From: a virus
Reading direction: 5' to 3' (one strand)
IMG/VR virus record: IMGVR_UViG_3300017751_000078
Coordinates: 1-35,597 of that record
DNA: 35,597 nucleotides
The notes under the pieces were generated by a model. That model was not told the origin of the DNA and did not search any database. It saw nothing but the letters and a program-made list of their open reading frames with translations. The translations under genes and the position numbers were made by a program. Position 1 is the first letter of the stretch. Every line of letters starts with the position of its first letter. This document shows positions 3,425-24,489 of this stretch, one piece after another.

Positions 3425-3427
3425 AAT

Positions 3428-3790
3428 TTAATATTTTTTCTTTTTACTATAATTATCTATTTGTTCTAATTTTCTTATTGCCCATTCTACTCCCGAAGTT
3501 CCACCCCATGCGTCCCACATTAAACCTCCACAACCCTCGTCATAAGGTACATCTTTGTGTTGTTGGTGTCTTTTGAATGAAGCCATTCGAGCAATAGTTT
3601 TACGGGATAATGGCTCACGATTTGCTAGTTGATTTGCTCTTGTCCAACCTACTTGTGTGCCACATTTACTTCCGTTTTTCTCCTTATAAGCTAATGCCTT
3701 TCTTGCGTTATTTGAAGCTGATTTCGGATAATCCGAATAAGTTTCCATTGCAAAATTTATCTTGTCTGCTATGTCTTTATTAATACTCAT
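3428..3790 (-). CDS. Conserved portal-linked phage protein of unknown function
   Basis: This 120-residue protein has a clear motif series: ARKALAYKEKNGSKCGTQVG, then WTRANQLANREPLSRKTIARM (starting at about residue 49), then ASFKRHQQHKD and GGLMWDAWGGTSGVEWAIRK. I have seen this series, with its RANQLANREPLS and WDAWGG blocks, in proteins or domains coded near portal and prohead protease genes in many tailed phages; no biochemical role is known to me. The start overlaps the portal gene end by 11 bases. The basic, aromatic character would suit binding to DNA or to the portal. Confidence 0.6.
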   Translation of the reverse strand: MSINKDIADKINFAMETYSDYPKSASNNARKALAYKEKNGSKCGTQVGWTRANQLANREPLSRKTIARMASFKRHQQHKDVPYDEGCGGLMWDAWGGTSGVEWAIRKLEQIDNYSKKKKY

Positions 3791-5042: not shown

Positions 5043-5280
5043 CTGTTTTCGGTGTAGAAGTTTCAATATCAACTAAATCACTACCTGCTTCGTACATTGC
5101 TCTCATAATATCCGAAGTTACAGTTGCTACTTTAAATCTTGTTCCGTTAAATTGGATAGTAGCATTTTCATCAAGCTTAACTGTCCAAATATATTTTCTG
5201 TTCTTTTTTGCCATGTTCTCTAATTTTTTTGCTAATGTAACAATTTTATTTTTATTTCCTCTACAATTACAATCTTTCAT
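5026..5280 (-). CDS. Small basic hypothetical protein of the head module
   Basis: This is an 84-residue protein. Its N-terminus is Cys-containing and basic (MKDCNCRGNKNK), followed by a helical stretch (IVTLAKKLENMAKKNRKY) and a beta-like part (TVKLDENATIQFNGTRFKVA). It begins 16 bases after a strong hairpin that separates it from the tail-tube-like gene and it overlaps the portal start by 17 bases. I recognise no family. The position suggests an accessory head or portal-loading factor. Confidence 0.5.
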   Translation of the reverse strand: MKDCNCRGNKNKIVTLAKKLENMAKKNRKYIWTVKLDENATIQFNGTRFKVATVTSDIMRAMYEAGSDLVDIETSTPKTDVKEK

Positions 5281-5295
5281 TTTTTCTTTTATAAA

Positions 5296-5337
5296 CTAAA
5301 AGGGTGGGTAAGCCATTCACCTACTCCACCCCTTTAG
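5296..5337 (-). terminator. Stable hairpin between tail-tube-like gene and portal group
   Basis: Read on the minus strand, CTAAAGGGGTGG and CCACCCTTTTAG form a 12-base-pair stem with one G-U pair and a loop of about 18 bases. The downstream stretch (TTTATAAAAGAAAAA) is AT-rich but has no solid T run. It could be a partial terminator, or a processing/stability hairpin protecting the abundant capsid and tail-tube message while lowering portal expression. Confidence 0.55.
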
Positions 5338-5364
5338 AATAAAACACTATGAAGAAACTAACTT

Positions 5365-5946
5365 TTAAGTTATTGAATATTCATTTATGTTAGCAGTCGC
5401 AACTGCTATTCCTGCACCCGATGGTACATATTCTCTTGGATATTCTGCCATGAAACCTGTAAGTTTAACTACTGTTTCATTTGCGTCTTGCAATGCACTA
5501 CCTGTGTTTTGCTCTCCACTTGCGAACTCTAGAAATGCTTCTGGTGAAAATATCTCATCATATCCTAAAACGAATTGGTAAGTATTTGTTCCATCATCTG
5601 CAAAAGTTTCAACTACTGCAAATAAACCACAAGTATTAGATAATTCTTCTAATCTAGCTTGTACTAGCTTTGTGATTTTTGGAACTGTAAAACCTAATTC
5701 AGTTTCAACTATTGTAGACCCGTTCTCTCTTGTTGCGTTTGCAGTAAAGTAAGCAGTTTCTCTATCAAATTCAAATTTATAGATAAACTTACCTGCTCCT
5801 AATGCAAAAGATGTATACTCGTGAGTACCTGCCGTAGCAACTGTTGTAGCTACATCATCTACTTGTCCAAGATAGATTGCTTTCAAACCACCTCTTCTAT
5901 TTCTGTCCGTACAAGTTATTATATGTCCTGCTGTTAATACACTCAT
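5365..5946 (-). CDS. Virion structural protein, probable major tail-tube protein
   Basis: This 193-residue protein is rich in Thr, Ala, Gly and Val with alternating beta-strand segments (KFIYKFEFDRETAYFTANAT, TYQFVLGYDEIF, ETVVKLTGFMAEYP). Size and composition fit a tail-tube or head-decoration protein. The internal LVQARLEELSNTCGLFAVVE helix-strand element resembles one I recall in Bacteroidetes phage tail-tube-like proteins. It follows the capsid gene by 27 bases and is itself followed by a stable hairpin, consistent with high expression. Decoration protein is the main alternative. Confidence 0.5.
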   Translation of the reverse strand: MSVLTAGHIITCTDRNRRGGLKAIYLGQVDDVATTVATAGTHEYTSFALGAGKFIYKFEFDRETAYFTANATRENGSTIVETELGFTVPKITKLVQARLEELSNTCGLFAVVETFADDGTNTYQFVLGYDEIFSPEAFLEFASGEQNTGSALQDANETVVKLTGFMAEYPREYVPSGAGIAVATANINEYSIT

Positions 5947-5973
5947 TTTTTATTTATTTTTTAGAGGTTAATA

Positions 5974-6990
5974 CTATGCGTTACTATCTGCCGTTACTGT
6001 TAATTCGTCATTCTTGTAGTTTACTCCCATAACATACTCAAATCTGAAACGATTATATTTCAAATCTTTGTTATACCACAAGTCTGCACCACCAACACTA
6101 TCGTAATCAGTTGCAACAACAATGTTATTCTTAACAGTTAAAACTGCAAGATGTCCATCTAATTTATTAGCAGGTGTATTTAAACTTGGAGCAGTTAAAG
6201 GAACTGCTATATTACTATCATTAGCAATAACTGTATCCCATAATCCCATTTCTACAATCGGAATGCCTTGGTAAGAAAGTTGTTTAGTACCATCAGTCAT
6301 TGATATGTAAGCTAACTCTTGTCCACCCGCTGCCAATGTTTGTCTGTAATTGTCTGCTAAAGAACGAGTAACGAAAAATACTAAATCATCTCTCATCTCC
6401 ATACCCTCGCTTGGCATTGCGTCAATCATTGTTTGAAATTCTGCTTTTGCAACATTTGCTCCAAGAGCACCCGAAGCGATTGCCAATCTTTGTGAAGCAG
6501 GAAGTCCTGCTAATTGCTTTAAGATACCATCATAAGAATTATAATCAACATAAGGTGCAGTAGCATTAGCACTATCGTTAAACCATAATTGTCTTTGTAA
6601 ATCTCTGTCTACTCCTCTTAACATTACATTAGCTACAATTTCTTGAAGAATTGTTCCTGTAATATCATCTTTGTTTAATCCTAAACGAAGTAATTCGCCT
6701 TTGATTGTGTTGAAGAAAGCTCCACCTGCTTGCTCTACTTCTGCTTCCATACGAGCAACCGAAATTGTTCTTTGTGTGTAAGATACACCTGTTGCACCTG
6801 CAAAACCCGAAGCTTCTGCTTTAGTGATTTTGTCTAATGTAGAAAACTTGTCTAGTTTTTGAGAAGATTTTACTCCTGTCATTACTTCAAAGTAATCCAT
6901 TGCTTTGTTACCTACAAATAAAGGTTGCAAGAAGTATGCTAATGCGTCCTCTTTTGAGTAAGTTAAAGCCGTTGTAATTAAATTTGCCAT
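5974..6990 (-). CDS. Major capsid protein
   Basis: This 338-residue protein lies directly after the prohead protease. It starts MANLITTALTYSKEDALAYF and has the mixed alpha/beta, Ala/Gly/Asp-rich composition of capsid proteins. Features include FLQPLFVG (residues 20-27), a mid-region DRDLQRQLWFNDSANATAPY, a central domain with DDLVFFVTRSLADNYRQTL, the YQGIPIVEMGLWD block and the C-terminal FRFEYVMGVNYKNDEL. These are typical of HK97-fold capsids that carry no long delta domain, where the separate or protease-fused scaffold does that job. The N-terminus is short, so a large cleaved scaffold inside this gene is unlikely. There is no promoter directly upstream; it would be read from the protease gene. 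Confidence 0.8.
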   Translation of the reverse strand: MANLITTALTYSKEDALAYFLQPLFVGNKAMDYFEVMTGVKSSQKLDKFSTLDKITKAEASGFAGATGVSYTQRTISVARMEAEVEQAGGAFFNTIKGELLRLGLNKDDITGTILQEIVANVMLRGVDRDLQRQLWFNDSANATAPYVDYNSYDGILKQLAGLPASQRLAIASGALGANVAKAEFQTMIDAMPSEGMEMRDDLVFFVTRSLADNYRQTLAAGGQELAYISMTDGTKQLSYQGIPIVEMGLWDTVIANDSNIAVPLTAPSLNTPANKLDGHLAVLTVKNNIVVATDYDSVGGADLWYNKDLKYNRFRFEYVMGVNYKNDELTVTADSNA

Positions 6991-7021
6991 TTCTTTTTTA
7001 CTTTTTGTTAATTATTAATTA

Positions 7022-8038
7022 TTATTTCTTTTTATTAAATCTGAATACACTATCACTTCCTAGTAAATCGGCAGCTTGCTCGAAGCTTGATTTTTCTTTC
7101 GGTAAATCTGTACTCTCAACAACAGGGTCTGAAGTATCTTCAGCAGTTGTCGGTGTAGCATTTGACTTATTGATTTCAGTCTGTAAAGAATTTTTTTCAG
7201 CTTCTAATGTTTCAATGTTTTCTTCCATTGTAATCATTAGTCCCGTAGCAGTTTCTAATTCTGCATTTACTGTACTCCACTTTTCTTCTTGTTCGTGAAT
7301 TTTTTCTGTAAGATCAACAATCTGATTTTTAATAGCAGTATCATTTAATGCACTAACTTCTTCAGAATTATTATCTTCGGGATTGTTAGTAACAAAATTA
7401 GATACAGTTTCTTTTAATTCAGATAGCATGTTAAATAATTTGTCCATTTCTTTATTTTGATTATTACTAATTTCTAATTCTTCTTCTTTTGAATACTTTT
7501 CCTCAACCCAATTAGGTGCGTTAAAGTTGGATATATCAAAATGTGCTGCCAACTTAATTGTGTCGCCAACTTTATCAATCATTCCAATTTCCAAAGCTTC
7601 TTCAGCAGTTAGCCAAGTTTCTTTGTCCATCATTACGGCAATTTCTTCCGCTTGCATACCTGTTTTGTCGGTGTATACATTTAGCATTTGCTCTTTAATT
7701 TTATTAAGCAATTCTACTTTATTTTGCAAGTCGGCACTATCACCCTGTACTCCCACTTGTGGGTTATGTATCATTATTAAAGAATTAGCAGAAGCAGTAA
7801 TCTCATCACCTGCCAACATAATAATTGAAGCCATTGAAGCACTTAATCCCTCAATAGTTACATTTACTTTTCCGTTATGTTTTTTTAATGCGTTGTAAAT
7901 AGCTATTCCCTCAAAAACATCTCCACCTACTGAATTTATTCTTAAATCTACATCAACACCATCTTCTAATTGTTCGATAATTGATTTAGCAGAAACTCCC
8001 ATTCCACCTATCATATCGTAAATAAAAACTTCTTTCAT
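7022..8038 (-). CDS. ClpP-like (S14) prohead protease with scaffold-like C-terminus
   Basis: This is a 338-residue protein. Residues 1-165 form a ClpP-like serine protease: RINSVGGDVFEGIAIYNAL near 33-51, GLSASMAS with the likely nucleophile Ser68, MIHNP with His91, and MDKETWLTAEEALEIGMID with Asp138 as candidate third residue. Residues from about 190 to the end are Glu/Lys/Asn-rich and coiled-coil-like (KEMDKLFNMLSELKETVSNF, then EEKWSTVNAELETATGL), which looks like a fused capsid scaffold that the protease would remove. I start at ATG 8038. The longer in-frame start at 8077 lies inside the predicted -7 promoter element. It is followed by the capsid gene after 31 bases. Confidence 0.8.
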   Translation of the reverse strand: MKEVFIYDMIGGMGVSAKSIIEQLEDGVDVDLRINSVGGDVFEGIAIYNALKKHNGKVNVTIEGLSASMASIIMLAGDEITASANSLIMIHNPQVGVQGDSADLQNKVELLNKIKEQMLNVYTDKTGMQAEEIAVMMDKETWLTAEEALEIGMIDKVGDTIKLAAHFDISNFNAPNWVEEKYSKEEELEISNNQNKEMDKLFNMLSELKETVSNFVTNNPEDNNSEEVSALNDTAIKNQIVDLTEKIHEQEEKWSTVNAELETATGLMITMEENIETLEAEKNSLQTEINKSNATPTTAEDTSDPVVESTDLPKEKSSFEQAADLLGSDSVFRFNKKK

Positions 8039-8074
8039 ATTATAATTTTTTGTTTTGTAGTGTTTTAATTGTTG

Positions 8075-8082
8075 CAAAAATA
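8075..8082 (-). promoter_or_regulatory. Candidate promoter -7 element for protease-capsid genes
   Basis: On the minus strand TATTTTTG matches the Bacteroidetes -7 consensus TAnnTTTG. It lies in the 74-base gap before the protease ATG at 8038, which leaves a leader of about 30 bases rich in A. No good TTG -33 element is seen at 19 bases, so this is a moderate call. Confidence 0.4.
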
Positions 8083-8112
8083 CAAAGTAACATTTTTCTT
8101 TACTCGAAGTTT

Positions 8113-8433
8113 TTACCGAAAAAGAATGTTATCCTTTTGAAATTGCTTCTGATACTCATATACTATTGTCTGTATTTGCCTTTCGCTTAATTCATATTCT
8201 ATACTCAAATCCATAAAAGTATGTGTAACATGTCCCTCATTTTTTCTTAATATAGTGTAGAAGTCGCAAATGATTAAATAATTTCTTAATCTAATTGGTG
8301 GGATAAGTCCCTGTGTCGATAAATGAGTAAGTATATCCATAGTACTAGGATTATCTCCGTACTTTAAAAATAGGTTTTCACTTAATACGGAAGCAAACCT
8401 TTTTATATCTTCTATATGATTTTTCTTTGCCAA
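8113..8433 (-). CDS. Putative HTH (Mor-like) DNA-binding protein
   Basis: This 106-residue protein appears to start at TTG (8433), since no ATG occurs before residue 32. The C-terminal half reads THTFMDLSIEYELSERQIQ followed by TIVYEYQKQF, a helix-turn-helix shape resembling the Mor/late-activator C-terminal helix pair. The N-terminal part is helical. It overlaps the upstream gene by 22 bases and stops just before the candidate protease promoter. A regulator of head-gene expression is possible, but the fold is inferred from a short motif. Confidence 0.45.
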   Translation of the reverse strand: MAKKNHIEDIKRFASVLSENLFLKYGDNPSTMDILTHLSTQGLIPPIRLRNYLIICDFYTILRKNEGHVTHTFMDLSIEYELSERQIQTIVYEYQKQFQKDNILFR

Positions 8434-8849: not shown

Positions 8850-11800
8850 TTAAAATTCTGCTCTACTTTCTAATATACTTACTGTTTCCTGCGTAGTTGT
8901 AACATCACTTTCCAATAGTGTTACTCTTTGGCTACCTAAAGCCATTGCTATCCTACCAACATCTTGCTCTGTTATAATGCTTCTATTAGATGTTTCTACT
9001 AATTGATTTTGTATTGCAACTGTACCACCATCAGCAAATTTAGTACCACCACCTGCTTCATTCATAGCAGAAAGTTGTCCTCTAAACATTGCAGTACTTC
9101 TTCTATTTATAACTGCTTCTCCACCCTCTAATTCTGCAACTTGTCCACCGACTGCAAACTTTACACCACCCTGTGCATGTCTAGGTCCTTTAACCATTCC
9201 ACCTTTAGCAAACTTTTCGGGTACTATTCCACCATGTTCTGCTCTAAATTGTGTTGCATTAATAGCTTGAATTTGTTTATTTGTATTTCCTATTTGAACA
9301 CCAATCATTCCTAATTTAATAATTGCGTCTACAACAGGATTACCTGTAATCTTTCCACTCCATATTCTCATTATTGCTAATGCACCCGATATTTTGGCTT
9401 CTGATTTATCTAGTTGCTTTTGCTTATTAAATTGTGTTTCTCTTAATTTATTTGCCTGTGTGTCATATCCTGCATTTAATTCTAATAATTTTGCGTCTTG
9501 ATCTTCCTGCGACAAAACCTTAAAGCTAGAACTTTCTTCTAGGTTTTTAATTGCTTCTTCTCTTTCTTGATTTATCCCGTATATTTTATTTTCAGTATTT
9601 ACTCTGTCTAATTCTGCCTGTCCTTGTCCCATTTGTTGAATGGTGCTTAATCCTGCCGACAAACCTGCTAATGCCATTTGTACATCTTCTCCATAAAATG
9701 CTTTAGCAAAATTACTCATTCCATCTTCAGCTTGAAGTGTTTGTTGTAATCCCTCAACCTCACCTTTTAGTGCTTGAAGATTTGCTATTTGAATTTTACT
9801 TAAAAAGCCTTCCTCAACTCCCTGCTTAATAATTTGGTCAATCTGCATTTGTTTCAGCTTTAATTGTGACTGAAGAACTTCATCTTCATATCCTGCAACC
9901 TTACTTAAAACATCAATAGTAGTTTGTTCTGCAATTATTCTGTCTGCTATACTATCTACTTTCTTCTTGTCACCATCAACTGATTTAGCAGTAGCTTTTC
10001 TTTGCTTTTCCTGTAATGCAGTTAATTCTTTTGTAGCCAATTTATACTCCTCGCTATTGATAACAAGTAAATCTCTGTTCTTTTTTACTTGACTTATTTT
10101 CTCTGAAAGTTTGGCTAGAGTATCATCTTCTAATGCTAATGCTTTTTCTAATGATAATAATTTCTTTTCTGTATCGTCTAGACTTGTAGTATAATCATCT
10201 TGTCCCTTTTTATTCTTTTTTAAATCATCACCAATAATGGTATTTAATTTATTATATCTTCTGATTTTACCCGTTACCTCGTCATAAGTAATCCCGAATT
10301 TTTCCAACTCAAGAGCATTCATTTTCTCTTTTAATTCTTGTTGTGCTTTAGCTAACCTTAAGGCTTCCATCTTACCCTCAAAAGTTGATTGATTTACTTT
10401 TTTATATGCACTCCCATAATTCTTTAATGCTATTAAATTCTGCTTAAAAGTTTCGTCCTTATCACGATATACTTGTATTGAAGCTTTCTGGACATTTAAT
10501 TCTTCTAGTGTTCCCTGTGTAGCACTTTGTAGTTGAGCTTTTTGTGTCTGATTTAATTTTTCGTATATCTGAATTCTTTCTTCAATATCAGTAACATTGC
10601 CTTGTAATTCTTTTCCTCGTCTTAATTCCTCATTCAAACTTGCTTGTTCTCGTTTTGCTTTATTTGCATTACTTGCAAACAATCCTAAAGCAGTTACTAA
10701 TGTTGTTAAAACCGAAGCAGCGAAAACATAAGGATTAGCTTTTACCGCTTTATTCAAAGCACTCTGTTGAATTTTTGCAATTCCTAATGCAACAGAAAAA
10801 CCTTTTGTAGCTATTGCGTTGGCTAACATCAATCCTTTATAGATTACAAAACCTGCTATACTTGATTTGACAACTACTGCTATTTTATCTAAATTTTTAA
10901 GCAGGAATGAGAAGCCATCAATAATACTTATAACGGCAGGTTTAAGTTTTTCTCCTACCTCAATTCTAATTGCTCTAAACTCTGCTTTGCTACTAGCTAG
11001 TTGTTGCTCAAGTGTTGCTTGTTGCATTTCTACCGCATTAGCCAAAGAAGAATTATCTCCATAGTCACTTGTTACTTCTTTTAATATTTCACTATATTCT
11101 TCTAGTTGTGCAGTCCCTAAAGCACCAACACCTGTCAATGCTCTAACATTTGGAATAAGTTGTGCTAGGATATCGGGTTGTTCTTCTGCTACTGTAGATA
11201 TTTTTGTAAGTATATTAAAGAAACCCTCTTGTTGTATTCCTGTTGCACCATACGCAATTCCTAATTTGTCAAATGTGTCGGCTGCGTCTTTACCGGGTTT
11301 AATCAAAGCAGTAATAGTAGACCTCAAAGCAGTACTTGCTTTATCAGTCGATATACCCTGTTTAGTTAATTCTGCAAAACCACTTAATAATTCTTGGTAC
11401 GATATTCCTGCTTGCCTAGCGATTGGAGCAACACTACCTATTGTTTCTGATAATTCAGCTACCGTTGTTTTACCAAATTTCTGTGCACTAAAGAAAGCAC
11501 TCGCTACTTGTTCTGCTTCGTCTGTTTCTAATCCATAAGCATTTATAACTGATGTAATACCATCTACTGCCGTACTTAATTCTGTAACACCACCAACTGC
11601 TAATTGAGAAGCAGTCCTCAAGAAGTCAATACTTTCAGAAGCAGGAACACCTGCCGATACTGCGTCAAATAAAGATTTGTTTAGATCGTCAATCTCAAAA
11701 CCAAATTCTTTCATTACATCAATAGCACCCGTTTTCATGCTTTCACCAAACTTGTTGATGTCATCACTAGACATAAGTGTTAGAACATTTGTAAATGTTT

Positions 11801-12374
11801 TTTCAAACCTACCAAAATCTTCAGTAGCACCCGAAACTAATCTGCTTAAAGCAGTAAAACCTGCCATTGCACCTGCTAATGCTACACCAACTCCTAGAAG
11901 CTTTTCTTTTGCACTTCCTAATGCACTCCCATAATTACCTACATTTCTTTGATTGTTTCCTAGTCCTGCGTCAAATTCTTTAAGCTTTTGATTGTTAGCA
12001 GTATATTCTGCTTTCATCTTTTTCATTTCAGCAGTATTTGACCCGATACCACCTTTAGTAGCTTTCATTTTAGAAAGCAACTGCTTATTCCTTTGTACTA
12101 ATCCATTATAACTTCCATCTAATTTTTTAACAGATTTAGTGTTGGCTATTATAGATTTTTGTTCTTGATTTCTTTGTTGCTTTAAATCTTTAATTGCAAC
12201 TCTTGTTGTAGCTATATTCTTGGCATGGATTTTCTGCATTCCTGCATTCTTCTTCCCTGCTTTAGTCATATTTTTAAGCTTGACTTCTGCTTTTGTTATC
12301 TCCTGCTCAAGCCTTACTAACTCGTCTGTTCCAACGATTTTAATATCTACTATCTTTGTTATATTTGAAGCCAT
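8850..12374 (-). CDS. Tail tape measure protein (TP901 family)
   Basis: This 1174-residue protein, the longest in the window, sets tail length and acts as a scaffold for the tail tube. The N-terminal 150 residues are a Lys/Gln/Asn-rich coiled coil. Residues of about 190-480 match the TP901-type PhageMin_Tail core: DVMKEFGFEIDDLNKSLFDA, SAGVPASESIDFLRTASQLA, AYGLETDEAEQVASAFFSAQ and FAELTKQGISTDKASTALRS. Hydrophobic helices follow near 505-590, where tape measures often carry membrane-active segments. A long Glu/Lys coiled coil (about 590-990) comes next, then a Gly-rich C-terminal part (AEHGGIVPEKFAKGGMVKGP) typical of tape measures. Start and upstream stop share one base (TAATG). Confidence 0.9.
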   Translation of the reverse strand: MASNITKIVDIKIVGTDELVRLEQEITKAEVKLKNMTKAGKKNAGMQKIHAKNIATTRVAIKDLKQQRNQEQKSIIANTKSVKKLDGSYNGLVQRNKQLLSKMKATKGGIGSNTAEMKKMKAEYTANNQKLKEFDAGLGNNQRNVGNYGSALGSAKEKLLGVGVALAGAMAGFTALSRLVSGATEDFGRFEKTFTNVLTLMSSDDINKFGESMKTGAIDVMKEFGFEIDDLNKSLFDAVSAGVPASESIDFLRTASQLAVGGVTELSTAVDGITSVINAYGLETDEAEQVASAFFSAQKFGKTTVAELSETIGSVAPIARQAGISYQELLSGFAELTKQGISTDKASTALRSTITALIKPGKDAADTFDKLGIAYGATGIQQEGFFNILTKISTVAEEQPDILAQLIPNVRALTGVGALGTAQLEEYSEILKEVTSDYGDNSSLANAVEMQQATLEQQLASSKAEFRAIRIEVGEKLKPAVISIIDGFSFLLKNLDKIAVVVKSSIAGFVIYKGLMLANAIATKGFSVALGIAKIQQSALNKAVKANPYVFAASVLTTLVTALGLFASNANKAKREQASLNEELRRGKELQGNVTDIEERIQIYEKLNQTQKAQLQSATQGTLEELNVQKASIQVYRDKDETFKQNLIALKNYGSAYKKVNQSTFEGKMEALRLAKAQQELKEKMNALELEKFGITYDEVTGKIRRYNKLNTIIGDDLKKNKKGQDDYTTSLDDTEKKLLSLEKALALEDDTLAKLSEKISQVKKNRDLLVINSEEYKLATKELTALQEKQRKATAKSVDGDKKKVDSIADRIIAEQTTIDVLSKVAGYEDEVLQSQLKLKQMQIDQIIKQGVEEGFLSKIQIANLQALKGEVEGLQQTLQAEDGMSNFAKAFYGEDVQMALAGLSAGLSTIQQMGQGQAELDRVNTENKIYGINQEREEAIKNLEESSSFKVLSQEDQDAKLLELNAGYDTQANKLRETQFNKQKQLDKSEAKISGALAIMRIWSGKITGNPVVDAIIKLGMIGVQIGNTNKQIQAINATQFRAEHGGIVPEKFAKGGMVKGPRHAQGGVKFAVGGQVAELEGGEAVINRRSTAMFRGQLSAMNEAGGGTKFADGGTVAIQNQLVETSNRSIITEQDVGRIAMALGSQRVTLLESDVTTTQETVSILESRAEF

Positions 12375-15300
12375 TATCCTTTTATTATTTTAGAAACACT
12401 TTTGTCATCTTCAGAAGCATTGCTTTCTGTATACAAGTCAATATAATCCCCATTGTTATCAGTTGTAACCATATTACTCCCACCGCCAATGTCACCGAAC
12501 TCGATTGCACCATCATGTGTTATTGTTAGTATATTTTTTCTGTCTGCTTCTGAAGTACCACCACCTATAATTACACTAGCTTTTGGATTATCTATATTAT
12601 ACTTTCCTAATATCATTTGTCCTGTACCACCACTCATTGATTTAAGATGGCTACCGATTAGAATATTACCTGCTTTATTTGGTGTGAAGTTATGATTACC
12701 ATTCAATACAAGAGAAGTGTTAGCACCTATATCAGATAGATTTATATTACCACCCAAACTTCCATGTGTATGCACGATATTATCTTTATCTTTATCTAAT
12801 TCTGTGTGTACATTTACTCCAATTCCAACTGTACCTACTCCCCATACTCCAACTGTACCTACTCCACCATCGTCTTGATTTCCATCATTCACTCCTGTGC
12901 TTGGACTACCCTCGTCTACTATTGTGTAAGGTGGTATTTTAAGATTAGTACTATTTGCACCTATTTGTAGAAGCCTTACTTTTGTAACACTATCTTCATG
13001 TGGCTTGTAATCTATTATCTTTTCAATAATCCAATAGCTACCATTTGCATGTCCATCTTCAACTAAAAATATAGGTACTCTTAAATCTAGTTGTGCAATA
13101 TCGCTTGGTGTTAGATATAGATAACATTCTTTTATTCTAGGATTAGAAGTGATTGAATCAATGTAAGGTTTCCAAAACCTAGTATATAATCCGTCCTGTA
13201 TATTGTCGGCATAATCTAATGTTTCTCCAAAACTATCGTCTACATCATGGAATGTCTGTGCACATGGATATTCATTAGTATGTCCTGCCGTGCCATCATG
13301 AGAACTATCATTCCATTTATATCCTGCATACATAGTACCGTTAAATGTCTTAACTCCCTCGTAAGAAAGTATTCTCAACTTCCAACCACCCATACTCCTT
13401 TCGGGTTTTGTTTGCCAAGATACATTACTAACATGGTCTTTAACAATTAAGGGTACCCATGGTGCGTCACCATTATTTCCGTCAATGTATTCTCTATCTC
13501 TAATGCTTGTTGTTGGTGCATAAAAGCTAGTGCCATGTTCTTCTATTTCGGGAAGATATTCATCTTGTAATGATATTAGAGTAGAATGGTAAGGATAACC
13601 TAAATTGCTTTCTAGGTATTCCACCTCTCCGTCCTTACTATCTTCTTTGTATCTAAATCTTAAATCTTTGCCTAATTTATCAGTTAGAAATAAAGTTTCT
13701 TGTGGCTTGGACATATCTAATTTATGTGTCCAATCTAATGCGTATGCACTCTCTTTGTAGAAGTCTTTGTAAGGCTCAACATATACTTTCTTTAATGCTT
13801 CATCAGTATACCAATACAGATTAAATAATCCTGTTAATCCCGATATGAAATCAAGTTTTGTTTCGTCACATGGTAAATAATCACTTGAATGAATGAAATC
13901 ACCATAAGCTAAATCTCCAAATCTTTCAATCAACACTCTAGTATCTCTTACATTCCCGTCACCCGGAAAGTTTAAAGGAGTAACTTGACTACCATCTTTC
14001 TGCATATCATACATGTGGAAGTTTTTAGTAAGCAGGTATCCATCAGAAGGCTGTATGTGATAGCCATTTTGTAACTCCTGCATATAGCACTCAATGATTA
14101 CAGTTTCTCCTTGATTTATTGTAACATATCCACTATCTAAATTAACTTCTCTATATGTACTTCCACTATAACTAGAGTAACTATTTATGTCGTCATCTAG
14201 CACTGTTTGGCTACCACCCGAGTATCCATTTACATTTGTCAAATTATTAACACTAGCACCCGACCCTATCATTTGCTCACAAGCATTGAAAGTTGTGCTC
14301 GAACTACATACTGTAATCTTACAATGTAATTTAGAATAGTTTCCTTGAATTAATGATAGCCACGATCTAACACGATATTGTGCAGTCTGTGGACATTCCC
14401 AATGCCATTGTGCATTTCCTTGCTCACTTTCTTTGTACCTAAAACCTCTTGCCAAAGCAAAAGGACTATTTGCACCATTATTTGCAGGTATCCCGTAAGG
14501 ATATTGGTAATGACTTGCGTCATCTCCTGCATTTGAAGGGTCTGTAATCTCAACATCAAATGGTGCATGTCTAGATATACCTCTTTTATAATTATTACTT
14601 CCTGTTGCCTTTATTGATAATTTAAAACAATGATTACAATGTCTTTCTTGTTCGTATGATGAATTCCAAACAGGTGACGGTGAATGTCCTGTTCCATCAT
14701 CAAATCTAAATCTTGCGTCATATTTATATTCGGCTGCCAAGTCGTCGGGAAAGACAAAGTTCTTCGGGTCTAATGGCATTACTAATTTCATAAAGAAATC
14801 AGAATTAAAGAAATCACTTTCTAACTCATATCCTGCTTGAGCAAAATAATAGTACACCAAATACCTTACAGAGTAAGATGGTGTCTGCTCCATTATATGT
14901 GCTTTAAAGCTATTTAAAGTTGCGTAAGGGTATTCATGCTCACCCCAAGTTATTAATGGTATTACAATACTTCTATGTGCAGGTATGGGACTAGGAACAT
15001 TATCATTAAACCATTGCCAAGCTCCGTGCGACCAAACAAATGAATGAAAGTCATCTCGATTAGCGTCACACATAGGTGCTTCCTTAAATTGCTTTACCCA
15101 TGAATTGTTATCACCTAATATAGTAATCTTGTAGCTATGAGGTTTGTTGTCTTTTATTATTGCTTTTACAGTTAGTGTGCCTTGAAAAACTTTCTGTCCA
15201 TTTACCAAGCATGTGCATTCTATTCTGCCATCAATTAAATCAGTAATATCTTCAAGTTGGTCGCTATGAGAATGATTTAATAATATATTGTTATTGTTTG

Positions 15301-18744: not shown

Positions 18745-20040
18745 CTACCCAAAGTAAACAACTTTACTCTTGGCTAATTCGAAATACATTCTCATCATTA
18801 ATGCGTCTGCTATGTCGGGACTTCTTCCGATTAAGTCTTTAATCTTTGACTTCTCCATGACATTAAGCTTCTGCTCACTATCTAGTTTTCTGACTTGGAC
18901 TATTTCTAATTCCTGTGCTAATGCGTCTCTATCTTCCATGACTGCATTAACATATATTTCTCCATTGTTTACTTTGTCTGCAAACATATAGTAACATTGT
19001 GCTTTAAGGTTTGCGTAATTCTCTTTGCCAATAGGTCTACTATTATTCACAAAACCTTTACACCTCAACACATCAACAAGTCCACCGCCTACTCCATCTT
19101 CATCAACTATTATATTGCTTCTGCCTACTTTGTTCTTGTTGGCTATCTCTAAAACATAAGTTGCTAATTCAGTAATGCTAGTTTTTGTGTATTGTAGAAT
19201 ACTCTCACATCTAAAACCATTCCATAAGCAGACAACACTTCTATCATTTCCATATCTTGCCACATCAACACTAATGTGTAAATCTCCTTTTGGTACGAAA
19301 CTGTTACTAAATATATCATTTATTTTATCATATTCGAATAGCTTACCTAATGTGTCATCATATTCCCACATACCCTCAAGTAATCTTTGTCTACTCACAT
19401 TGTCTAACCTTTGCAGTTGTCCTATATAATGCTTACTAATATGAGGATTATCTGTTACTAAAGACTGTAAGAAGTACCTATGATTTAAGATGTTACCATC
19501 TTTCCAAGGTTTGTAGAACTCATTATATAACCAATTCTTTGTAGGGTTGCAAGTTAGTAAGACTTTTGGCACAAGATTATGCAGGTCTAACTGAAATCTT
19601 ATTCTACTACTTAATATCATTATGGCTTTCTGCGTACATTCACTCGCTTCATCTACAAAAGCACCCGTTATCTCCATACTACCAAGCTTGTCAAAGTTAG
19701 GGTCTGATGGATAATAGAATAAATCTTTTAATACTATTTGGCTACCTGTAGAATGAAATGTCATGAAGCCCGAAGTCCTATTAAAGTAATAATCATTAGA
19801 TGTAATCCCCTGCATCTTCATGATTTCAAACAGGGTGTTAAGAGTAGTTGATTTAAGAGTATGCAGTTTTGATCTTCCGATAAGCCAACGAGTACCGGGA
19901 TATTTAAAACAATTCTTCAATATCCAATAACAACCTAATGCTGATTTACCACCACCTGCACCACCACCAAACAATAAGGTATTATGCTTACTATTTTCTA
20001 GTATATCTAATGCCTTTGTCTGCTTTATTGTTAATCTCAT
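18745..20040 (-). CDS. terL: Terminase large subunit
   Basis: This is a 431-residue packaging motor. The ATPase domain has Walker A GGGAGGGKS at residues 25-33, Walker B GAFVDEASE around 126-134 with acidic Asp130/Glu131, and the coupling motif LLTCNPT at 161-167. The nuclease domain carries the three acidic positions expected for an RNase H-like fold: SVDVA (Asp259), IVDEDG (Asp313) and DIADAL (Asp409 or Asp412). It overlaps the HNH gene by 4 bases. It translocates DNA into the prohead through the portal and cuts the concatemer. The length is normal for the family. Confidence 0.95.
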   Translation of the reverse strand: MRLTIKQTKALDILENSKHNTLLFGGGAGGGKSALGCYWILKNCFKYPGTRWLIGRSKLHTLKSTTLNTLFEIMKMQGITSNDYYFNRTSGFMTFHSTGSQIVLKDLFYYPSDPNFDKLGSMEITGAFVDEASECTQKAIMILSSRIRFQLDLHNLVPKVLLTCNPTKNWLYNEFYKPWKDGNILNHRYFLQSLVTDNPHISKHYIGQLQRLDNVSRQRLLEGMWEYDDTLGKLFEYDKINDIFSNSFVPKGDLHISVDVARYGNDRSVVCLWNGFRCESILQYTKTSITELATYVLEIANKNKVGRSNIIVDEDGVGGGLVDVLRCKGFVNNSRPIGKENYANLKAQCYYMFADKVNNGEIYVNAVMEDRDALAQELEIVQVRKLDSEQKLNVMEKSKIKDLIGRSPDIADALMMRMYFELAKSKVVYFG

Positions 20041-20291
20041 TTTTTCATTGAGTTGAATTTATCTTTGCCTTGAAAGTCGTATGCGTAATGGCACTCCATA
20101 CAAAGCAGTTGGATATTGTCTTTATTATATTTCAATTCAGGATAAGCACCCTTACCTTTTATGTGGCTAAAGTAATGTGCTCTTGGCTCGTAACCTAAAT
20201 GCTTACCGCAATTAGTACACTCATGTTCTCTCTCGTCCCATATTTCAAGAAACATTTTCTTCTCACTCCCTTTCTTCTTCTTCTTGCTCAT
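20037..20291 (-). CDS. HNH-type endonuclease between the terminase genes
   Basis: From ATG 20291 this is an 84-residue protein; a longer reading from 20333 would overlap the small terminase gene by 71 bases. Visible motifs are CTNCGKH (CxxC) near residues 26-32, HYFSHIKGKG in the middle and LLCMECHYAYD (CxxC-H) near the end. This is a zinc-bound HNH fold with the His-rich centre as active site. HNH proteins beside terminases in cos-type phages such as HK97 are needed for DNA cutting during packaging (established), so a packaging role is more likely than a homing role. The Lys-rich start (SKKKKKGSEKK) fits DNA binding. Confidence 0.7.
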   Translation of the reverse strand: MSKKKKKGSEKKMFLEIWDEREHECTNCGKHLGYEPRAHYFSHIKGKGAYPELKYNKDNIQLLCMECHYAYDFQGKDKFNSMKK

Positions 20292-20640
20292 TAGAATAGG
20301 TTTTAATTTCTTCCCATTGAATAGGTCTACCATCTTCTCCTGTCAATTCAATCCTTTCTCCGTAACCTCTCTCTCTATTATAGGTTTTACTCGCATGGAT
20401 TACTGCACTAGGTATCTCTTTATCTACTAATTTCAATAGTTTGCTTTCTATGAAATCACCCTTCAATTTCTTTGTGTCTAATTTAGAACATGCTTCTCTA
20501 TACTCCTCGTCATCTTCACACCATCTGTAATGGGTTTGTCTGCTAATCCCGACTACCTTACAAGCAGTTGTAACAATACCCATTGCTTGTTCTAATGCGT
20601 CAAGCATTGCTTCCTTTTGTATTTTGCTCTTATCTGTCAC
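20263..20640 (-). CDS. terS: Terminase small subunit
   Basis: This is a 125-residue protein reading from GTG at 20640, 11 bases after the IbrB-like stop; ATG at 20607 is the alternative start. The N-terminal domain is a helix-turn-helix: ALEQAMGIVTTACKVVGISR followed by QTHYRWCEDDEEYREAC, the typical DNA-recognition part of small terminases. The middle is a helical oligomerisation region and the C-terminus has GYGERIELTGEDGRPI, which recurs in small terminases, before a Glu-rich tail that would contact the large subunit. It overlaps the HNH gene by about 29 bases. Confidence 0.8.
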   Translation of the reverse strand: MTDKSKIQKEAMLDALEQAMGIVTTACKVVGISRQTHYRWCEDDEEYREACSKLDTKKLKGDFIESKLLKLVDKEIPSAVIHASKTYNRERGYGERIELTGEDGRPIQWEEIKTYSNEQEEEERE

Positions 20641-20651
20641 TTTCTGTAACT

Positions 20652-21170
20652 TTACAGGGTTTCACTCGGTTTCCATGCTTTTCCAAAATCTGCGTCTTTG
20701 AATACATCTGATTTAGGTATTCCTGCTCTAAATAGTAGCCTCGTTACTTCCTCTTTCTCCATTTGTAATCGCTTCATTATTTCGCTACCATCTAATCCTG
20801 CTTCTACCATATCGGTTACAAGATTACTCATCTCTAATATGCCATGCGTTCCTCTTGCTCTGTTATGTCTAATAGTTGCCATCTTCTGACTTTCCTCATC
20901 TTTAGGATTAATCATTACTGTTGGCACATGTCCATCTGTTAGATTAAATATCTCTTTATGTCCCGAAACAGTCCACCTATGAAATCCATCTACTATTGTC
21001 ATATCGGGGTTTATTACTATCGGTTGTGTCCACCCATCTTCTTGTATGGATATCTTCAATAGCTTTAATTCTTTAGGTGCTACTTTATTTGGGTTGTAGT
21101 TGTTACTACTTAATTCTTCCCTGTTTCTCCAAACTATCTCGTTTAAAGGCTGATTTTCATATTTACTCAT
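20652..21170 (-). CDS. IbrB-like ParB-fold protein
   Basis: This is a 172-residue protein with a ParB/sulfiredoxin-like domain. Residues 27-66 run NPNKVAPKELKLLKISIQED to IVDGFHRW, where DGFHRW (61-66) replaces the usual GxHR motif. RHNRARGTHG (101-110) is a signature of IbrB-type proteins, and a C-terminal helix pair (SEIMKRLQMEKEEVTRLLFR) resembles the ParB helix-turn-helix. In E. coli, IbrB acts with the PAPS-reductase-like IbrA to activate prophage-linked genes (established). Here the IbrA-like gene is the immediate neighbour, 18 bases upstream. Catalysis by the ParB fold, possibly nucleotide-dependent, is inferred. Confidence 0.8.
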   Translation of the reverse strand: MSKYENQPLNEIVWRNREELSSNNYNPNKVAPKELKLLKISIQEDGWTQPIVINPDMTIVDGFHRWTVSGHKEIFNLTDGHVPTVMINPKDEESQKMATIRHNRARGTHGILEMSNLVTDMVEAGLDGSEIMKRLQMEKEEVTRLLFRAGIPKSDVFKDADFGKAWKPSETL

Positions 21171-21188
21171 GATTGTATTGTTTTATTT

Positions 21189-22370
21189 TTATCGTTTACC
21201 AAATCGCTTCCTAGCTTCTTCTAGTGTCATGTCTAACTTCTTTAATTCCTTATTACTTTGTGCCGTTAGATAATCTGCTTGCCTACCCTTAAAATCACCA
21301 CGCATTGCACATCTACAACAAAATCTCCAAGACATTCCCGTTAATGGGTGTGGCTCATTGTCTTGTATCATGTCATTTGTTTTATTATAATGTTGCTTAA
21401 TGTATTTGTTGATATTATTCTTTACTTGATTTCTATGTTTTAATCCATAACTATCTAATAATACATGTAGATATTCTTTATATGACAAGTGTTCGGGTTT
21501 AGTTTTAGCATTAGAATATAATTCACTATTACCATATCTCCATGCAGTAGCAACTCCTGGTACTCTATTTAACATTTTATGCCACATATTCGGGAAGCAT
21601 TCACTAAACAACCACAATCCACGAACAGGCTCTTCACCAAACGGTGGACATACTCTTTGCGTTAGCCATCTACCATGTAATTTTGTCTGATTGTATCTAT
21701 CGTAAGTTTCGTTATAGTCCCAACCAAATTTACTTACTGCAATCCATACATCTTTAGATGTCCAATCGTAAATAGGGTGGCACATGAAAGTTGCGTATCC
21801 TCTACTCGCTTGTGCTATATAGCTATCATGCTTTTTACTTGCTATTACTTTATGTCGTCTTAAACTTTCTTCTGTTCTAATTCCTGTAAGCATTGCAACT
21901 CTACCATTTGTCCTGCTATATATTAAATCACTAAAGTCGGGTATTGTCATTCCCTTTTTAAATTTCGGGTGTTCCTTTATTGCTTTTTTCGGCATATCTC
22001 TTACCCAAATATCTTCCTTTCCCTTTTCCCAATTATACCACCACGGCTCTTCATTTGAGCAAGCATTTCTATGCTTAAATTCTAGACAATACCATTTTAA
22101 ATCTACATCTTCTCTTTCACTTACTCTATGTACATACTCAATAGTTGTTGGGTGAATTGCTTCCTCATCAAAGAAAACTACTTCCAATGGCTCTTTGATA
22201 CCTCGTTCCTCTCTTACTTTTAATACTGTCTGCAAAACTGCCGTACTATCTTTGCCACCCGAAAAGGATACTACTATTTTATCGAAGTTGTCATATATAT
22301 AATTAACTCGCTTCTTGCTTTCTTCCCAAACATTTGTGTCTATGAATTGCTTCTTTCTAACTCTTGCCAT
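21189..22370 (-). CDS. IbrA-like PAPS-reductase-family protein
   Basis: This is a 393-residue protein of the PP-loop ATP pyrophosphatase superfamily. It shows the nucleotide loop SGGKDS at residues 37-42, FFDEEAIHP at 66-74, the GIRTEES block at 163-169, and CHPIYDWTSKDVW at 197-209. A C-terminal cysteine cluster FCCRCAMRGDF (350-360) may bind a metal or carry sulfur. The length and C-terminal extension (DUF3440-like) match IbrA and DndC-type proteins rather than CysH. It shares one base with the upstream PAPS-reductase-like gene (TAATG). The likely reaction is activation of a substrate with ATP and transfer of sulfur or an equivalent; the substrate is unknown. Confidence 0.8.
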   Translation of the reverse strand: MARVRKKQFIDTNVWEESKKRVNYIYDNFDKIVVSFSGGKDSTAVLQTVLKVREERGIKEPLEVVFFDEEAIHPTTIEYVHRVSEREDVDLKWYCLEFKHRNACSNEEPWWYNWEKGKEDIWVRDMPKKAIKEHPKFKKGMTIPDFSDLIYSRTNGRVAMLTGIRTEESLRRHKVIASKKHDSYIAQASRGYATFMCHPIYDWTSKDVWIAVSKFGWDYNETYDRYNQTKLHGRWLTQRVCPPFGEEPVRGLWLFSECFPNMWHKMLNRVPGVATAWRYGNSELYSNAKTKPEHLSYKEYLHVLLDSYGLKHRNQVKNNINKYIKQHYNKTNDMIQDNEPHPLTGMSWRFCCRCAMRGDFKGRQADYLTAQSNKELKKLDMTLEEARKRFGKR

Positions 22371-23035
22371 TATCTGAATTTATTAGTGAAGTCCTGCTTT
22401 GGCGAAGTATTCTCTACTATTTGCCAACATCTATTTAAGTTATTATTATGGTATTTAGGATTAATAGAATAAAAAGGACTATTACCCTCTGTCTTTCCAT
22501 GCTCTGTTGAATATATCCAAGGTGGTGGAATGTTAAACATTTTAAAGTATTGCCAAACTTCTTCTTCTTTCCAATCTCTTATCGGGTGGCATTGCATACC
22601 ATTTTCTTTCGTACTATACAATTCATTTTTCACAGTATTTTCCTCTGTTCTCCTACCTGTATAAGTCACTCCTGCGTTAATTGATTTGCCAAACTTTTTA
22701 ATACTTGCTTGTTGTCTGACTGAAAAGCTTCTAGATCGTACTGCCTTATCGCTTGAAAATATCATTTGCTTATTTCTATTAAGCCATTCATCTGATAAAG
22801 AACATACATAAGTAACATTTAGCCTTAACATTTTTGCTATTGCCTTAATATCTTCTAGTTGTTCGGGATAATAAAAACTCGTTTCGCAAATCATTGGAAT
22901 GTCGGGTATAATATGATTTACTAAATGTGCACATACAATGCCATCTTTTCCACCGCTAAATGCTACTGCACCTTTCCCATATTGAGAATTAGCAAAATTG
23001 ATTAGCTTTCTTGCTTTGTTTATTTTCTCGTGCAT
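22370..23035 (-). CDS. Compact PAPS-reductase-like PP-loop protein
   Basis: This is a 221-residue protein from ATG 23035, placed one base after the cupin stop; an earlier start at 23062 would overlap it. Motifs are AFSGGKDG (25-32; Gly replaces the usual Ser), ETSFYYPEQL (51-60), TGRRTEEN (126-133), CHPIRDWKEEEVWQYF (149-164) and a PPPWIYS block near 170-176. The final CysH catalytic motif (ECGLH) is missing, so this is unlikely to be an assimilatory PAPS reductase. It is a second, diverged member of the family beside the IbrA-like gene. It is co-translated with it through TAATG. Confidence 0.75.
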   Translation of the reverse strand: MHEKINKARKLINFANSQYGKGAVAFSGGKDGIVCAHLVNHIIPDIPMICETSFYYPEQLEDIKAIAKMLRLNVTYVCSLSDEWLNRNKQMIFSSDKAVRSRSFSVRQQASIKKFGKSINAGVTYTGRRTEENTVKNELYSTKENGMQCHPIRDWKEEEVWQYFKMFNIPPPWIYSTEHGKTEGNSPFYSINPKYHNNNLNRCWQIVENTSPKQDFTNKFR

Positions 23036-23036
23036 A

Positions 23037-23894
23037 TTACTTTGTTCTGATATCCTCAACACTTCCTGCTGACACTAGCTTACCATCTTGTCTTACTATT
23101 GTTCTATTAATCATTGGGTGTACCTCATCAGTACTTCCAAAATCACTATCGGGGTGAAAAGCTATTACATCCATTCCTGTTTCTACAGGTGTATTAAATG
23201 CGTGCATACCACAAGCATGAGTTTCTCCGTCTAATCCCTTTGCAAAAGCATTACCTTTGGCTACCATTTCTTCTGTCCACTCTTTAATAACAAATATCAT
23301 TCCTTTTACTAATGGTAAGTTTCCGAATGGTGTTACACATACTCCATGACCATCAGCTACTATTCCTATTCTATGACTTGGGTGCGTATGTTGTGTCTGT
23401 ACAATATCTTTCGGAAAGTGTAAATGATTAAAGCACGGGTCTCCCTTTTTTACAGGTGAAATAAGTAAGCTATCAGTACACCCATCTATATATTTTAATC
23501 TTCCTACTTCTTCAATAGGTCCACCAAATGATGGCATTGCTCTATAATTATTTTCGGGATATATTCCTTTTGTATGTAACACTTCAATAACTATCAGTTT
23601 TGAACTTTCGTAACTATTGATTTCGAATTCTCCTGTTACACTAAAATATTGTCCGTCTATTAAATTTTGTGTTGGATAATGGCTTTGAGTTATTTTTAAG
23701 TTTCCACCGTAAACATATCCATAATAACTACAGTCTGCTTTGCTCTTAAAGTCATTACCATTTCCGTTTATTATATTGTAGTATCTAATCGGATATTTAC
23801 TATGCTTGCTATCGTCAAAGATTAATCCTGCTACATTATTATCAAAGCTTATGAAAGCATTGTTTTCTTCATACTTAATATTACTTGGTATCAT
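23037..23894 (-). CDS. Cupin-like metalloprotein in the ParB/PAPS-reductase cassette
   Basis: This is a 285-residue protein. The C-terminal half carries cupin-like metal motifs: NHLHF (His157, His159), QTQHTHPSHRIGIVADGHG (His169, His171, His174, Gly182-Gly184), and HACGMHAFNTPVETG (His226, His231), followed by IAFHPDSDFGSTDEVHP (His247, His259). The N-terminal 140 residues are beta-rich (YYGYVYGGNLKITQSHYP). Cupins can be oxygenases, isomerases or ligand-binding proteins; the set of His residues favours a metal enzyme. It overlaps the ParB-like gene by 14 bases and precedes the PAPS-reductase-like gene, so it probably acts in the same pathway. The substrate is unknown. Confidence 0.6.
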   Translation of the reverse strand: MIPSNIKYEENNAFISFDNNVAGLIFDDSKHSKYPIRYYNIINGNGNDFKSKADCSYYGYVYGGNLKITQSHYPTQNLIDGQYFSVTGEFEINSYESSKLIVIEVLHTKGIYPENNYRAMPSFGGPIEEVGRLKYIDGCTDSLLISPVKKGDPCFNHLHFPKDIVQTQHTHPSHRIGIVADGHGVCVTPFGNLPLVKGMIFVIKEWTEEMVAKGNAFAKGLDGETHACGMHAFNTPVETGMDVIAFHPDSDFGSTDEVHPMINRTIVRQDGKLVSAGSVEDIRTK

Positions 23895-24489
23895 TTTCTA
23901 GGTATTTGTTAGTTAATATCATAATTGCGTCTTCAAGTTTTTCTAGACTATTGTCTAATTGTATACTTTTAATTGTAGTCATAAACTTTAATTTGTTTTC
24001 ATATAGCATGACTAATTCTAGTTTTGAATAATCGTCATCATCTCCAGACACTTTGGTGTCGTCATCTTTAATGTCTACATCGTCCATTCCAAGATAATCA
24101 TCTTGGTTTTTCCATAAATCAACTCCCCAATCTCCAAGTTGTACACTATTCCATTCATTACTCAACATGTCCCACTCCCATTGTCCGAAGCTTACATTGT
24201 CTTTAATAATAAACTCTTTCTTTTGATCGTCTGATAAATCGGATATTTTAATAGCAGGTATCTCTTTAAGTCCTGCTTCTCGACATGCTCTGTATCTCAT
24301 GTTTCCACCTAAAATAGTCATGTTCTCATCAACTACAATAGGTCGAAGATTTAACATTTCGGGAAACTCTTTAATTGATTGGACTAATTTCTTGAATTTA
24401 TCCTCTTGAATGTTTCTTGGGTTTTCGGCATTAAGTTTGAAGTCATCTACTTTTACCGATTTAATGTTTGGTAATTTGGGTTTGCTCAT
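23881..24489 (-). CDS. ParB-like nuclease-domain protein, first gene of the late cluster
   Basis: This is a 202-residue protein. The ParB/sulfiredoxin-like domain spans about residues 11-100: DDFKLNAENPRNIQEDKFKK, then RPIVVDENMTILGGNMRYRA, where GGNMR (61-65) stands for the GG-R motif. The pattern continues FIIKDNVSFGQWEWDMLSNE (93-112), seen in phage ParB proteins coded near terminases and methylases. The C-terminus is Asp-rich and then helical. It is the first gene after the two terminators at 24548-24604. No ParA partner is in the window, so plasmid-type partition is not supported. It differs clearly from the second ParB-like protein at 20652-21170. Confidence 0.75.
   Translation of the reverse strand: MSKPKLPNIKSVKVDDFKLNAENPRNIQEDKFKKLVQSIKEFPEMLNLRPIVVDENMTILGGNMRYRACREAGLKEIPAIKISDLSDDQKKEFIIKDNVSFGQWEWDMLSNEWNSVQLGDWGVDLWKNQDDYLGMDDVDIKDDDTKVSGDDDDYSKLELVMLYENKLKFMTTIKSIQLDNSLEKLEDAIMILTNKYLENDTK

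Follow-up and report, generated by a model that had tools for sequence, protein, structure and literature searches.

Several described systems come close to the gene cassette reported here. In Synechococcus phage S-B43, CmoY, a homologue of asparagine synthetase, ligates glycine to 5-carboxymethylcytosine in DNA; the CmoA–CmoX–CmoY pathway yields 5-glycyl-carboxymethylcytosine and ParB-domain genes are its frequent neighbours (PMC12783734). 7-Deazaguanine DNA modification (DpdA, QueC/D/E, FolE, DpdB) combines a ParB-fold protein with base-modifying enzymes, of which QueC is an amide-forming PP-loop enzyme. In phosphorothioation the PAPS-reductase-fold ATPase DndC has the ParB/Srx-fold partner DndB, and in Escherichia coli prophages IbrA, a protein with PAPS_reduct and DUF3440 regions, is followed by the ParB-domain protein IbrB. 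The cassette lies at positions 20652–24489 of IMG/VR virus record IMGVR_UViG_3300017751_000078 (35,597 nucleotides; this whole stretch is referred to as the window) and encodes, on the minus strand, ParB1, a bicupin, the PP-loop proteins PAPS1 and PAPS2, and ParB2. We consider it reasonably probable that it is a mobile phage DNA-hypermodification system, with DNA as its presumed target; the added group is probably amine- or ammonia-derived and the role probably anti-restriction.

With the Cmo cluster the cassette would have in common an AMP-forming, asparagine-synthetase-like ligase, ParB neighbours and, for some of the ligases, a glutamine-hydrolysing domain, and by analogy CmoY may be taken as the closest precedent, namely ATP-dependent ligation onto DNA in a ParB-linked phage cluster. 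It differs in that its PP-loop enzymes belong to the PAPS-reductase/IbrA type, its cupin is obligatory, no CmoA was seen, and a cytosine-C5 methyltransferase (PF00145), which a CmoXY-type system would carry, was found in 0/28 cassette contigs (which may be incomplete). The 7-deazaguanine systems are used in the same genomic slot by one related phage (see below), whereas no TGT/DpdA, QueD, QueE or FolE match was found in the window (Pfam; best 25 of 72 PHROGs families). PAPS2–ParB2 is homologous to IbrA/IbrB and in the same order; the cassette adds an obligatory ParB1 and cupin, optional PAPS1, glutamine amidotransferase (GATase) and short-chain dehydrogenase genes, and a location beside the terminase. 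Compared with DndC, it has no cysteine motif, a weak model score and no other Dnd genes in the window scans.

The gene order recurs strictly. All 40 testable ParB2-seeded loci (at least 4 kb upstream, uncultured phages; 29 clusters at 90% ParB2 identity) carried PAPS2, the cupin and ParB1 in unchanged order; this set is made up of the nearest relatives (69% identity or more), and the count speaks for these, not for more distant IbrB proteins. PAPS2 and ParB2 were present downstream in 53/53 cupin-seeded loci (36 clusters), and in 62/62 testable loci ParB1 preceded the cupin. This recurrence is far beyond chance. PAPS1 was present in a minority (9/40 ParB2-seeded and 15/53 cupin-seeded loci) and is missing from L101 and L010, for example, so that the stable unit is the four genes ParB1–cupin–PAPS2–ParB2. 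The initial annotation had described a five-gene cassette and proposed counting all five proteins together beside the terminase: strict co-occurrence was borne out for the four core genes in all testable loci, while PAPS1 proved to be optional.

The large open reading frame (ORF) downstream of the cassette matched terminase-large-subunit PHROGs in most testable loci. These terminases fall into 13 clusters at 35% identity, most of them without a BLAST match to the terminase large subunit (TerL) of the window, while across the same loci ParB2 is 46–82% and PAPS2 35–64% identical to the window proteins (ranges that leave out L099, which is near-identical to the window); the cassette therefore moves as a module. 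The location could also be read as packaging or segregation control, in which ParB proteins acting as NTP-gated clamps near pac would aid the terminase and the enzymes would modify terminase or capsid proteins. It would fit the position of the cassette, which in the window immediately precedes the gene for the small terminase subunit (TerS) and in most testable loci is followed by a large terminase ORF, and the ParB fold with its helix–turn–helix (HTH)-like segment, but the extreme diversity of the adjoining terminases speaks against a specific terminase partner and close relatives package without the cassette; we regard this explanation as very unlikely.

Phages with related packaging genes (TerL 58–67% identical, TerS 43–48% and HNH 67–80%, except for L259 with TerS at 32%) carry other genes in the slot occupied by the cassette, immediately upstream of TerS. 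In L259 these encode PTPS/QueD, a QueE-like protein, GTP cyclohydrolase I, ParB, a queuine tRNA-ribosyltransferase-like protein (DpdA family) and a methyltransferase; in L255 and L257 they encode ParB, a TET-associated glycosyltransferase (TAGT; PF20691, 1e-10) and a sugar-nucleotide (NAD) epimerase. As judged from their sequences, both sets are recognisable DNA base-modification genes. In L248, L249 and L253 the slot is filled by genes for a YWxM protein (see below), a protein resembling N6/N4-methyltransferases, an AdoMet decarboxylase (1e-12), PAPS2 and ParB2 in divergent form, and one or two further ParB proteins; since the decarboxylase (SpeD-like) lies beside a DNA methyltransferase-like gene, an aminopropyl-type DNA modification is suggested there. 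The genes of L307 (TerL 53%) resemble this set but showed no AdoMet decarboxylase, and L254 has two ParB proteins. The ParB/YWxM/methyltransferase-like/PAPS2/ParB2 module is located at L253:3057–7273, L249:303–4525, L248:512–4616 and L307:3723–7483.

The window cassette thus sits in a slot used by such modules, which makes DNA modification its most economical function. DNA modification had been one of several candidates in the initial annotation and is raised to the leading one by these slot analogues in close relatives; the use of the slot by neighbouring phages for DNA-modification modules, and the link to asparagine-synthetase-like ligases and amidotransferases, had been overlooked. DNA modification accounts better than any rival explanation for the wealth of enzymes and the exchange of modules in the slot taken together.

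PAPS2 (21189–22370, minus strand), an IbrA-like core member with a DUF3440 region, matched PAPS_reduct (1e-17) and DUF3440 (7e-11) in Pfam and PHROG 2302 (7e-91); PAPS1 (22370–23062, minus strand), the optional member, matched PAPS_reduct (2e-15) and carries a GRRxEEN motif. Queried as single proteins, PAPS1 returned no viral relatives and PAPS2 one only, and relatives of both were gathered instead by alignment-based and by cupin- and ParB2-seeded searches. The window proteins have the PP-loops SGGKDST (PAPS2) and SGGKDG (PAPS1), which place them in the N-type PP-loop ATP pyrophosphatase superfamily, and SGGKD or SAGKD was found in 94/100 PAPS2 and 23/24 PAPS1 sequences, partial ones included. 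The catalytic cysteine motif of CysH, ECG[ILVM]H, occurred in 0/100 PAPS2 and 0/24 PAPS1 sequences, and neither alignment has an invariant cysteine column. Adenylation chemistry is known in the PP-loop enzymes QueC, TilS, AsnB and CysD. An intact PP-loop together with the lack of ECGxH and of an invariant cysteine points to adenylation and speaks against PAPS reduction or a DndC-type reaction. On these motifs both proteins look like adenylating ligases, for which the name 'PAPS reductase' is misleading.

A sulfur function, either auxiliary metabolic genes for sulfate assimilation or DndC-type phosphorothioation, would agree with the family name and the PAPS_reduct matches, and a phage gene of the PAPS-reductase family has been published as an auxiliary metabolic gene (PMC10434257). 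The CysH models stayed below their curated cut-offs (24.9 and 42.8 bits versus 165 for TIGR00434; 33.9 and 52 versus 154 for NF002537), the DndC equivalog model gave 38.1 bits against a cut-off of 290.4, and IscS, DndD and DndE had no match among the other proteins of the window (Pfam scan; best 25 of 72 PHROGs families). Together with the missing cysteines this led both the sulfate-reduction and the DndC readings to be rejected, the latter having been put forward in the initial annotation, and a sulfur function is considered extremely improbable.

Further enzymes occur inside some cassettes. Between PAPS1 and PAPS2 a class II glutamine amidotransferase (MCGIWG…, Pfam GATase_6 2.6e-7) was found in some loci and only where PAPS1 is present (10/10 locus entries, some from the same contig); in non-redundant clusters it accompanied PAPS1 in 4/14 cases versus 0/22 without PAPS1 (Fisher p = 0.017). 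Five loci have a short-chain dehydrogenase between ParB1 and the cupin, and others have a protein of about 165 residues ('YWxMGRP') or a PD-(D/E)XK protein between PAPS2 and ParB2. These accessories point in the same direction as the PP-loops, towards adenylation chemistry. The YWxM family (PHxYTTRD … YWEMGRP … NKA), with no Pfam match, was seen in 32 locus entries (e.g. L125:2669–3166 and L041:9000–9497), and at L307:4253–5041 a related YWxM domain is fused to an S-adenosylmethionine-dependent methyltransferase, a fusion that ties this accessory to modification chemistry.

ParB2 (20652–21170, minus strand), the core partner of PAPS2, is an IbrB-like protein with a ParB N-domain, HTH-like helices and the motifs VDGFHRW and RHNRARGTH. 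It matched PHROG 2159 ('ParB-like', 5e-61), and ParB_N in Pfam at 2.5e-4, which is under the curated cut-off; TIGR00180 aligned to residues 18–150 but reached 17 bits against a cut-off of 58. The best Foldseek matches were Noc/ParB proteins (N-domain plus HTH; E 3e-6, TM ∼0.5). A role as a free-serine kinase, considered from the DGxHR motif, was dropped: SerK (1.2e-2) and SbnI (1.4e-2) ranked far below, Noc/ParB being favoured by more than three orders of magnitude. ParB1 (23881–24489, minus strand; 202 residues, LGGNMR motif) is a ParB/Srx NTPase-fold protein and an invariant core member that matched ParB_N (2e-11) and, as its best PHROG, 498, ParB-containing DNA methyltransferases. Its C-terminal tail (YSxxExxM…NK…EDA) also recurs in the family alignment; a segment at approximately residues 150–195 (DDxYSxFELxMxHENK…EDALxxLIxxY) is common even to proteins with a different ParB-domain subtype (L006, L016), and since it is kept when the subtype differs it suggests a docking domain. 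No ParA-type family was among the Pfam matches of the 49 other window ORFs or the best 25 of 72 PHROGs families, no ParA-aimed search having been made. ParB-fold domains can bind CTP, ATP or GTP (PMC12704722).

The resemblance to IbrA/IbrB that had been proposed for the cassette was upheld for PAPS2–ParB2, at 30% identity to IbrA and 40% to IbrB of Escherichia phage PhiR5_2 with the same gene order; of the two such pairs initially described, one remains, the rest being an extra ParB1 and an optional PAPS1. As the phage PhiR5_2 proteins are annotated as co-activators of prophage gene expression, the cassette could instead be regulatory, with PAPS2–ParB2 as IbrA/IbrB-type (pro)phage co-activators, ParB2 binding DNA, and PAPS2 and the cupin sensing a nucleotide or metabolite. 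A weak Pfam match of the cupin to an AraC-binding type and the control of genes by the ParB-fold proteins VirB and BisD (PMC12704722) agree with this. It leaves unexplained why the cassette has extra PP-loop, amidotransferase and dehydrogenase genes and why close relatives have recognisable DNA-modification modules in its place, and the fully conserved ATP-pyrophosphatase loop of the IbrA-type PAPS2 suggests catalysis. A regulatory function is therefore judged unlikely.

The bicupin (23037–23894, minus strand; 285 residues) has a variable N-terminal and a highly conserved C-terminal half. By itself it had no Pfam match above the cut-off, while family members reach Cupin_2 down to 1e-9. Its AlphaFold model (pLDDT 88, pTM 0.84) shows a bicupin, and the putative metal ligands H169, H171 and H231, all invariant in the family alignment, correspond to the HxH…H arrangement of the cupin superfamily. 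Foldseek matched it to bicupins (E 3e-11, TM 0.48–0.60), among them (S)-ureidoglycine aminohydrolase (4e2q, 1rc6) and BacB, with which it has the two-cupin fold in common at an identity of just 10–13%. No enzyme class emerged: a sequence search of the PDB gave nothing significant, the Foldseek matches were generic bicupins and a viral library gave no closer match.

About 295 relatives of the cupin were found in IMG/VR, and tblastn against 50,697 cultured-phage records gave no match; an annotated cupin was likewise present in 0 of eight cultured-phage PAPS2-family loci inspected. All carriers of the cassette are uncultured contigs or prophage-like loci. The cultured Arthrobacter phage Salgado (L246) has the same layout without the cupin (ParB–PAPS2–ParB–methyltransferase–HTH protein–terminase large subunit; 3284–8303), and in Fusobacterium phage phiFN37 (L245) a PAPS2–ParB2 pair lies a few kilobases from a block of ParB, queuine TGT and queuosine precursor transporter genes (5998–7786 and 10745–12915). 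A literature search for the combination of cupin, ParB, PAPS and terminase found no paper in the collection searched.

Four of 80 bacterial cupin loci (L159, L160, L170 and L233) have PAPS2, with ParB1 in 4/4 and ParB2 in 3/4 (the contig of L159 ends within PAPS2); L160 (contig JANINS010000004.1, 1.39 Mb), in which a terminase-like gene follows the cassette, looks like a Chitinophagaceae prophage. In about 31 other bacterial loci, from Planctomycetota, Verrucomicrobiota, Acidobacteriota, Myxococcota and Bacteroidota, the cupin has as its neighbour a Zn-ribbon membrane-like protein, an asparagine synthase or both (Asn_synthase 5e-70 plus GATase_7 in the one protein tested), and in 12 bacterial loci it adjoins a GATase-less AsnB-like PP-loop protein ('LWSGGIDSTVAL'; judged by motif, no Pfam match). 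Asparagine-synthase or AsnB-like PP-loop genes thus neighbour the cellular cupins in about 43 loci. Such cellular neighbourhoods include L184:6767–10205, L195:8498–12004, L162:7637–9663 and about 40 more genome loci from many phyla. The cupin thus accompanies PP-loop ligases in two unrelated settings, phage and cellular. A quick maximum-likelihood tree implies about four changes of label for the phage cupins, and well-supported branches force no fewer than three of them; the cupin has therefore apparently joined such cassettes on more than one occasion.

PP-loop ligases and AsnB-like enzymes often act on tRNA or metabolites. The cassette might accordingly make or alter a metabolite or a tRNA base, through transfer of an amide or amine, in a way that helps infection, with DNA not involved. 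Besides these usual substrates, the cellular cupin–AsnB neighbourhoods lie far from phage genes and the one in Maricaulis is beside a sialic-acid-synthase-like (NeuB) gene. Two invariant ParB-fold, DNA-associated members, one with an HTH-like segment, and the use of the slot for DNA-modification modules by relatives argue against it, and we rate this explanation as improbable to the same degree as a regulatory one.

DNA hypermodification also has to be weighed against several observations that count against it. E. coli IbrA/IbrB bear the annotation of transcriptional co-activators, ParB proteins occur widely in phages at large and the ParB1 proteins of the slot analogues are only ∼30% identical to that of the window. 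The cupin matches are at the level of the fold and point to no particular catalytic role. Known base-handle enzymes (C5- or N6/N4-methyltransferase, thymidylate synthase) are essentially absent from the cassette contigs, with no thymidylate synthase in any of the 28. N6/N4 or C5 methyltransferases were found in 1/28 contigs with the cassette, against 9/25 contigs of TerL relatives that lack the cupin cassette (p = 0.004), a contrast drawn from fragments and related phages that is not significant for matches above the curated cut-off (1/28 versus 5/25, p = 0.09). The lack of a handle enzyme suggests that the system acts on a native base or that the handle comes from an enzyme not recognised as such, perhaps the cupin.

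In the proposed DNA-modification mechanism, ParB2, with its NTP-binding ParB domain and HTH-like segment, and perhaps ParB1 would recruit the machinery to phage DNA or keep it there in an NTP-dependent manner. PAPS2, assisted in cassettes that have it by PAPS1 with or without the glutamine amidotransferase, would spend ATP on adenylating the oxygen of a carbonyl or carboxyl group, either of the base itself or of a group added to it, before exchanging AMP for an amine, ammonia or another nucleophile; in some cassette versions PAPS1 plus the amidotransferase would supply or attach ammonia. The cupin would supply or finish the added group by metal-dependent small-molecule chemistry at its three-histidine site, and the resulting virion DNA would resist host restriction enzymes. 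Because the contigs almost never carry a methyltransferase or thymidylate synthase, the enzymes may act on the carbonyl of an unmodified base, as TilS or TtcA do in tRNA, and not on a C5 handle installed beforehand. The more specific proposal that ParB-guided, IbrA-family adenylating PP-loop enzymes act directly on a native DNA base, with a group made or finished by the cupin and no C5 handle, is put forward tentatively and is doubtful as it stands. If it is true, IbrA/IbrB and many phage 'PAPS reductase–ParB' pairs would be DNA-modifying enzymes, neither regulators nor sulfur genes. Such pairs are labelled as sulfur metabolism or vague co-activators in hundreds of phage genomes and could alternatively be the ATP-using step of a DNA-modifying machine, of which the window cassette, a compact four-gene unit with an obligatory cupin, would be the most elaborate form. 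The slot between the early genes and TerS, in which phages exchange one DNA-modification system for another, could be mined for further chemistries.

All five ORFs are open throughout, and the genes and spacings given in the initial annotation agree at every junction. ParB1 and the cupin overlap by 14 nucleotides; the gap between the cupin and PAPS1 is 1 nucleotide with an ATG start at 23035, which is the likely start of PAPS1, whereas the GTG at 23062 (the first start chosen by the program) would give a 26-nucleotide overlap with the cupin. PAPS1 and PAPS2 meet at TAATG, and the spacing is 18 nucleotides between PAPS2 and ParB2 and 11 between ParB2 and TerS. The cassette had been called fused to the packaging operon; it is contiguous with TerS–HNH–TerL, with no protein fusion. 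These genes follow on the minus strand as a TerS-like HTH protein (20263–20640; PHROG 4044, 1e-7) directly downstream of the cassette, HNH (20037–20333) and TerL (18745–20040; Terminase_3 2.5e-9, PHROG 2 3e-31). Promoter-like sites numbered 19 in a scan versus 31 in shuffles, and terminator-like sites were at chance level. In family scans, other ORFs of the window matched Pyr_excise (pyrimidine dimer DNA glycosylase), a ClpP-type head maturation protease and a DNA-repair exonuclease.

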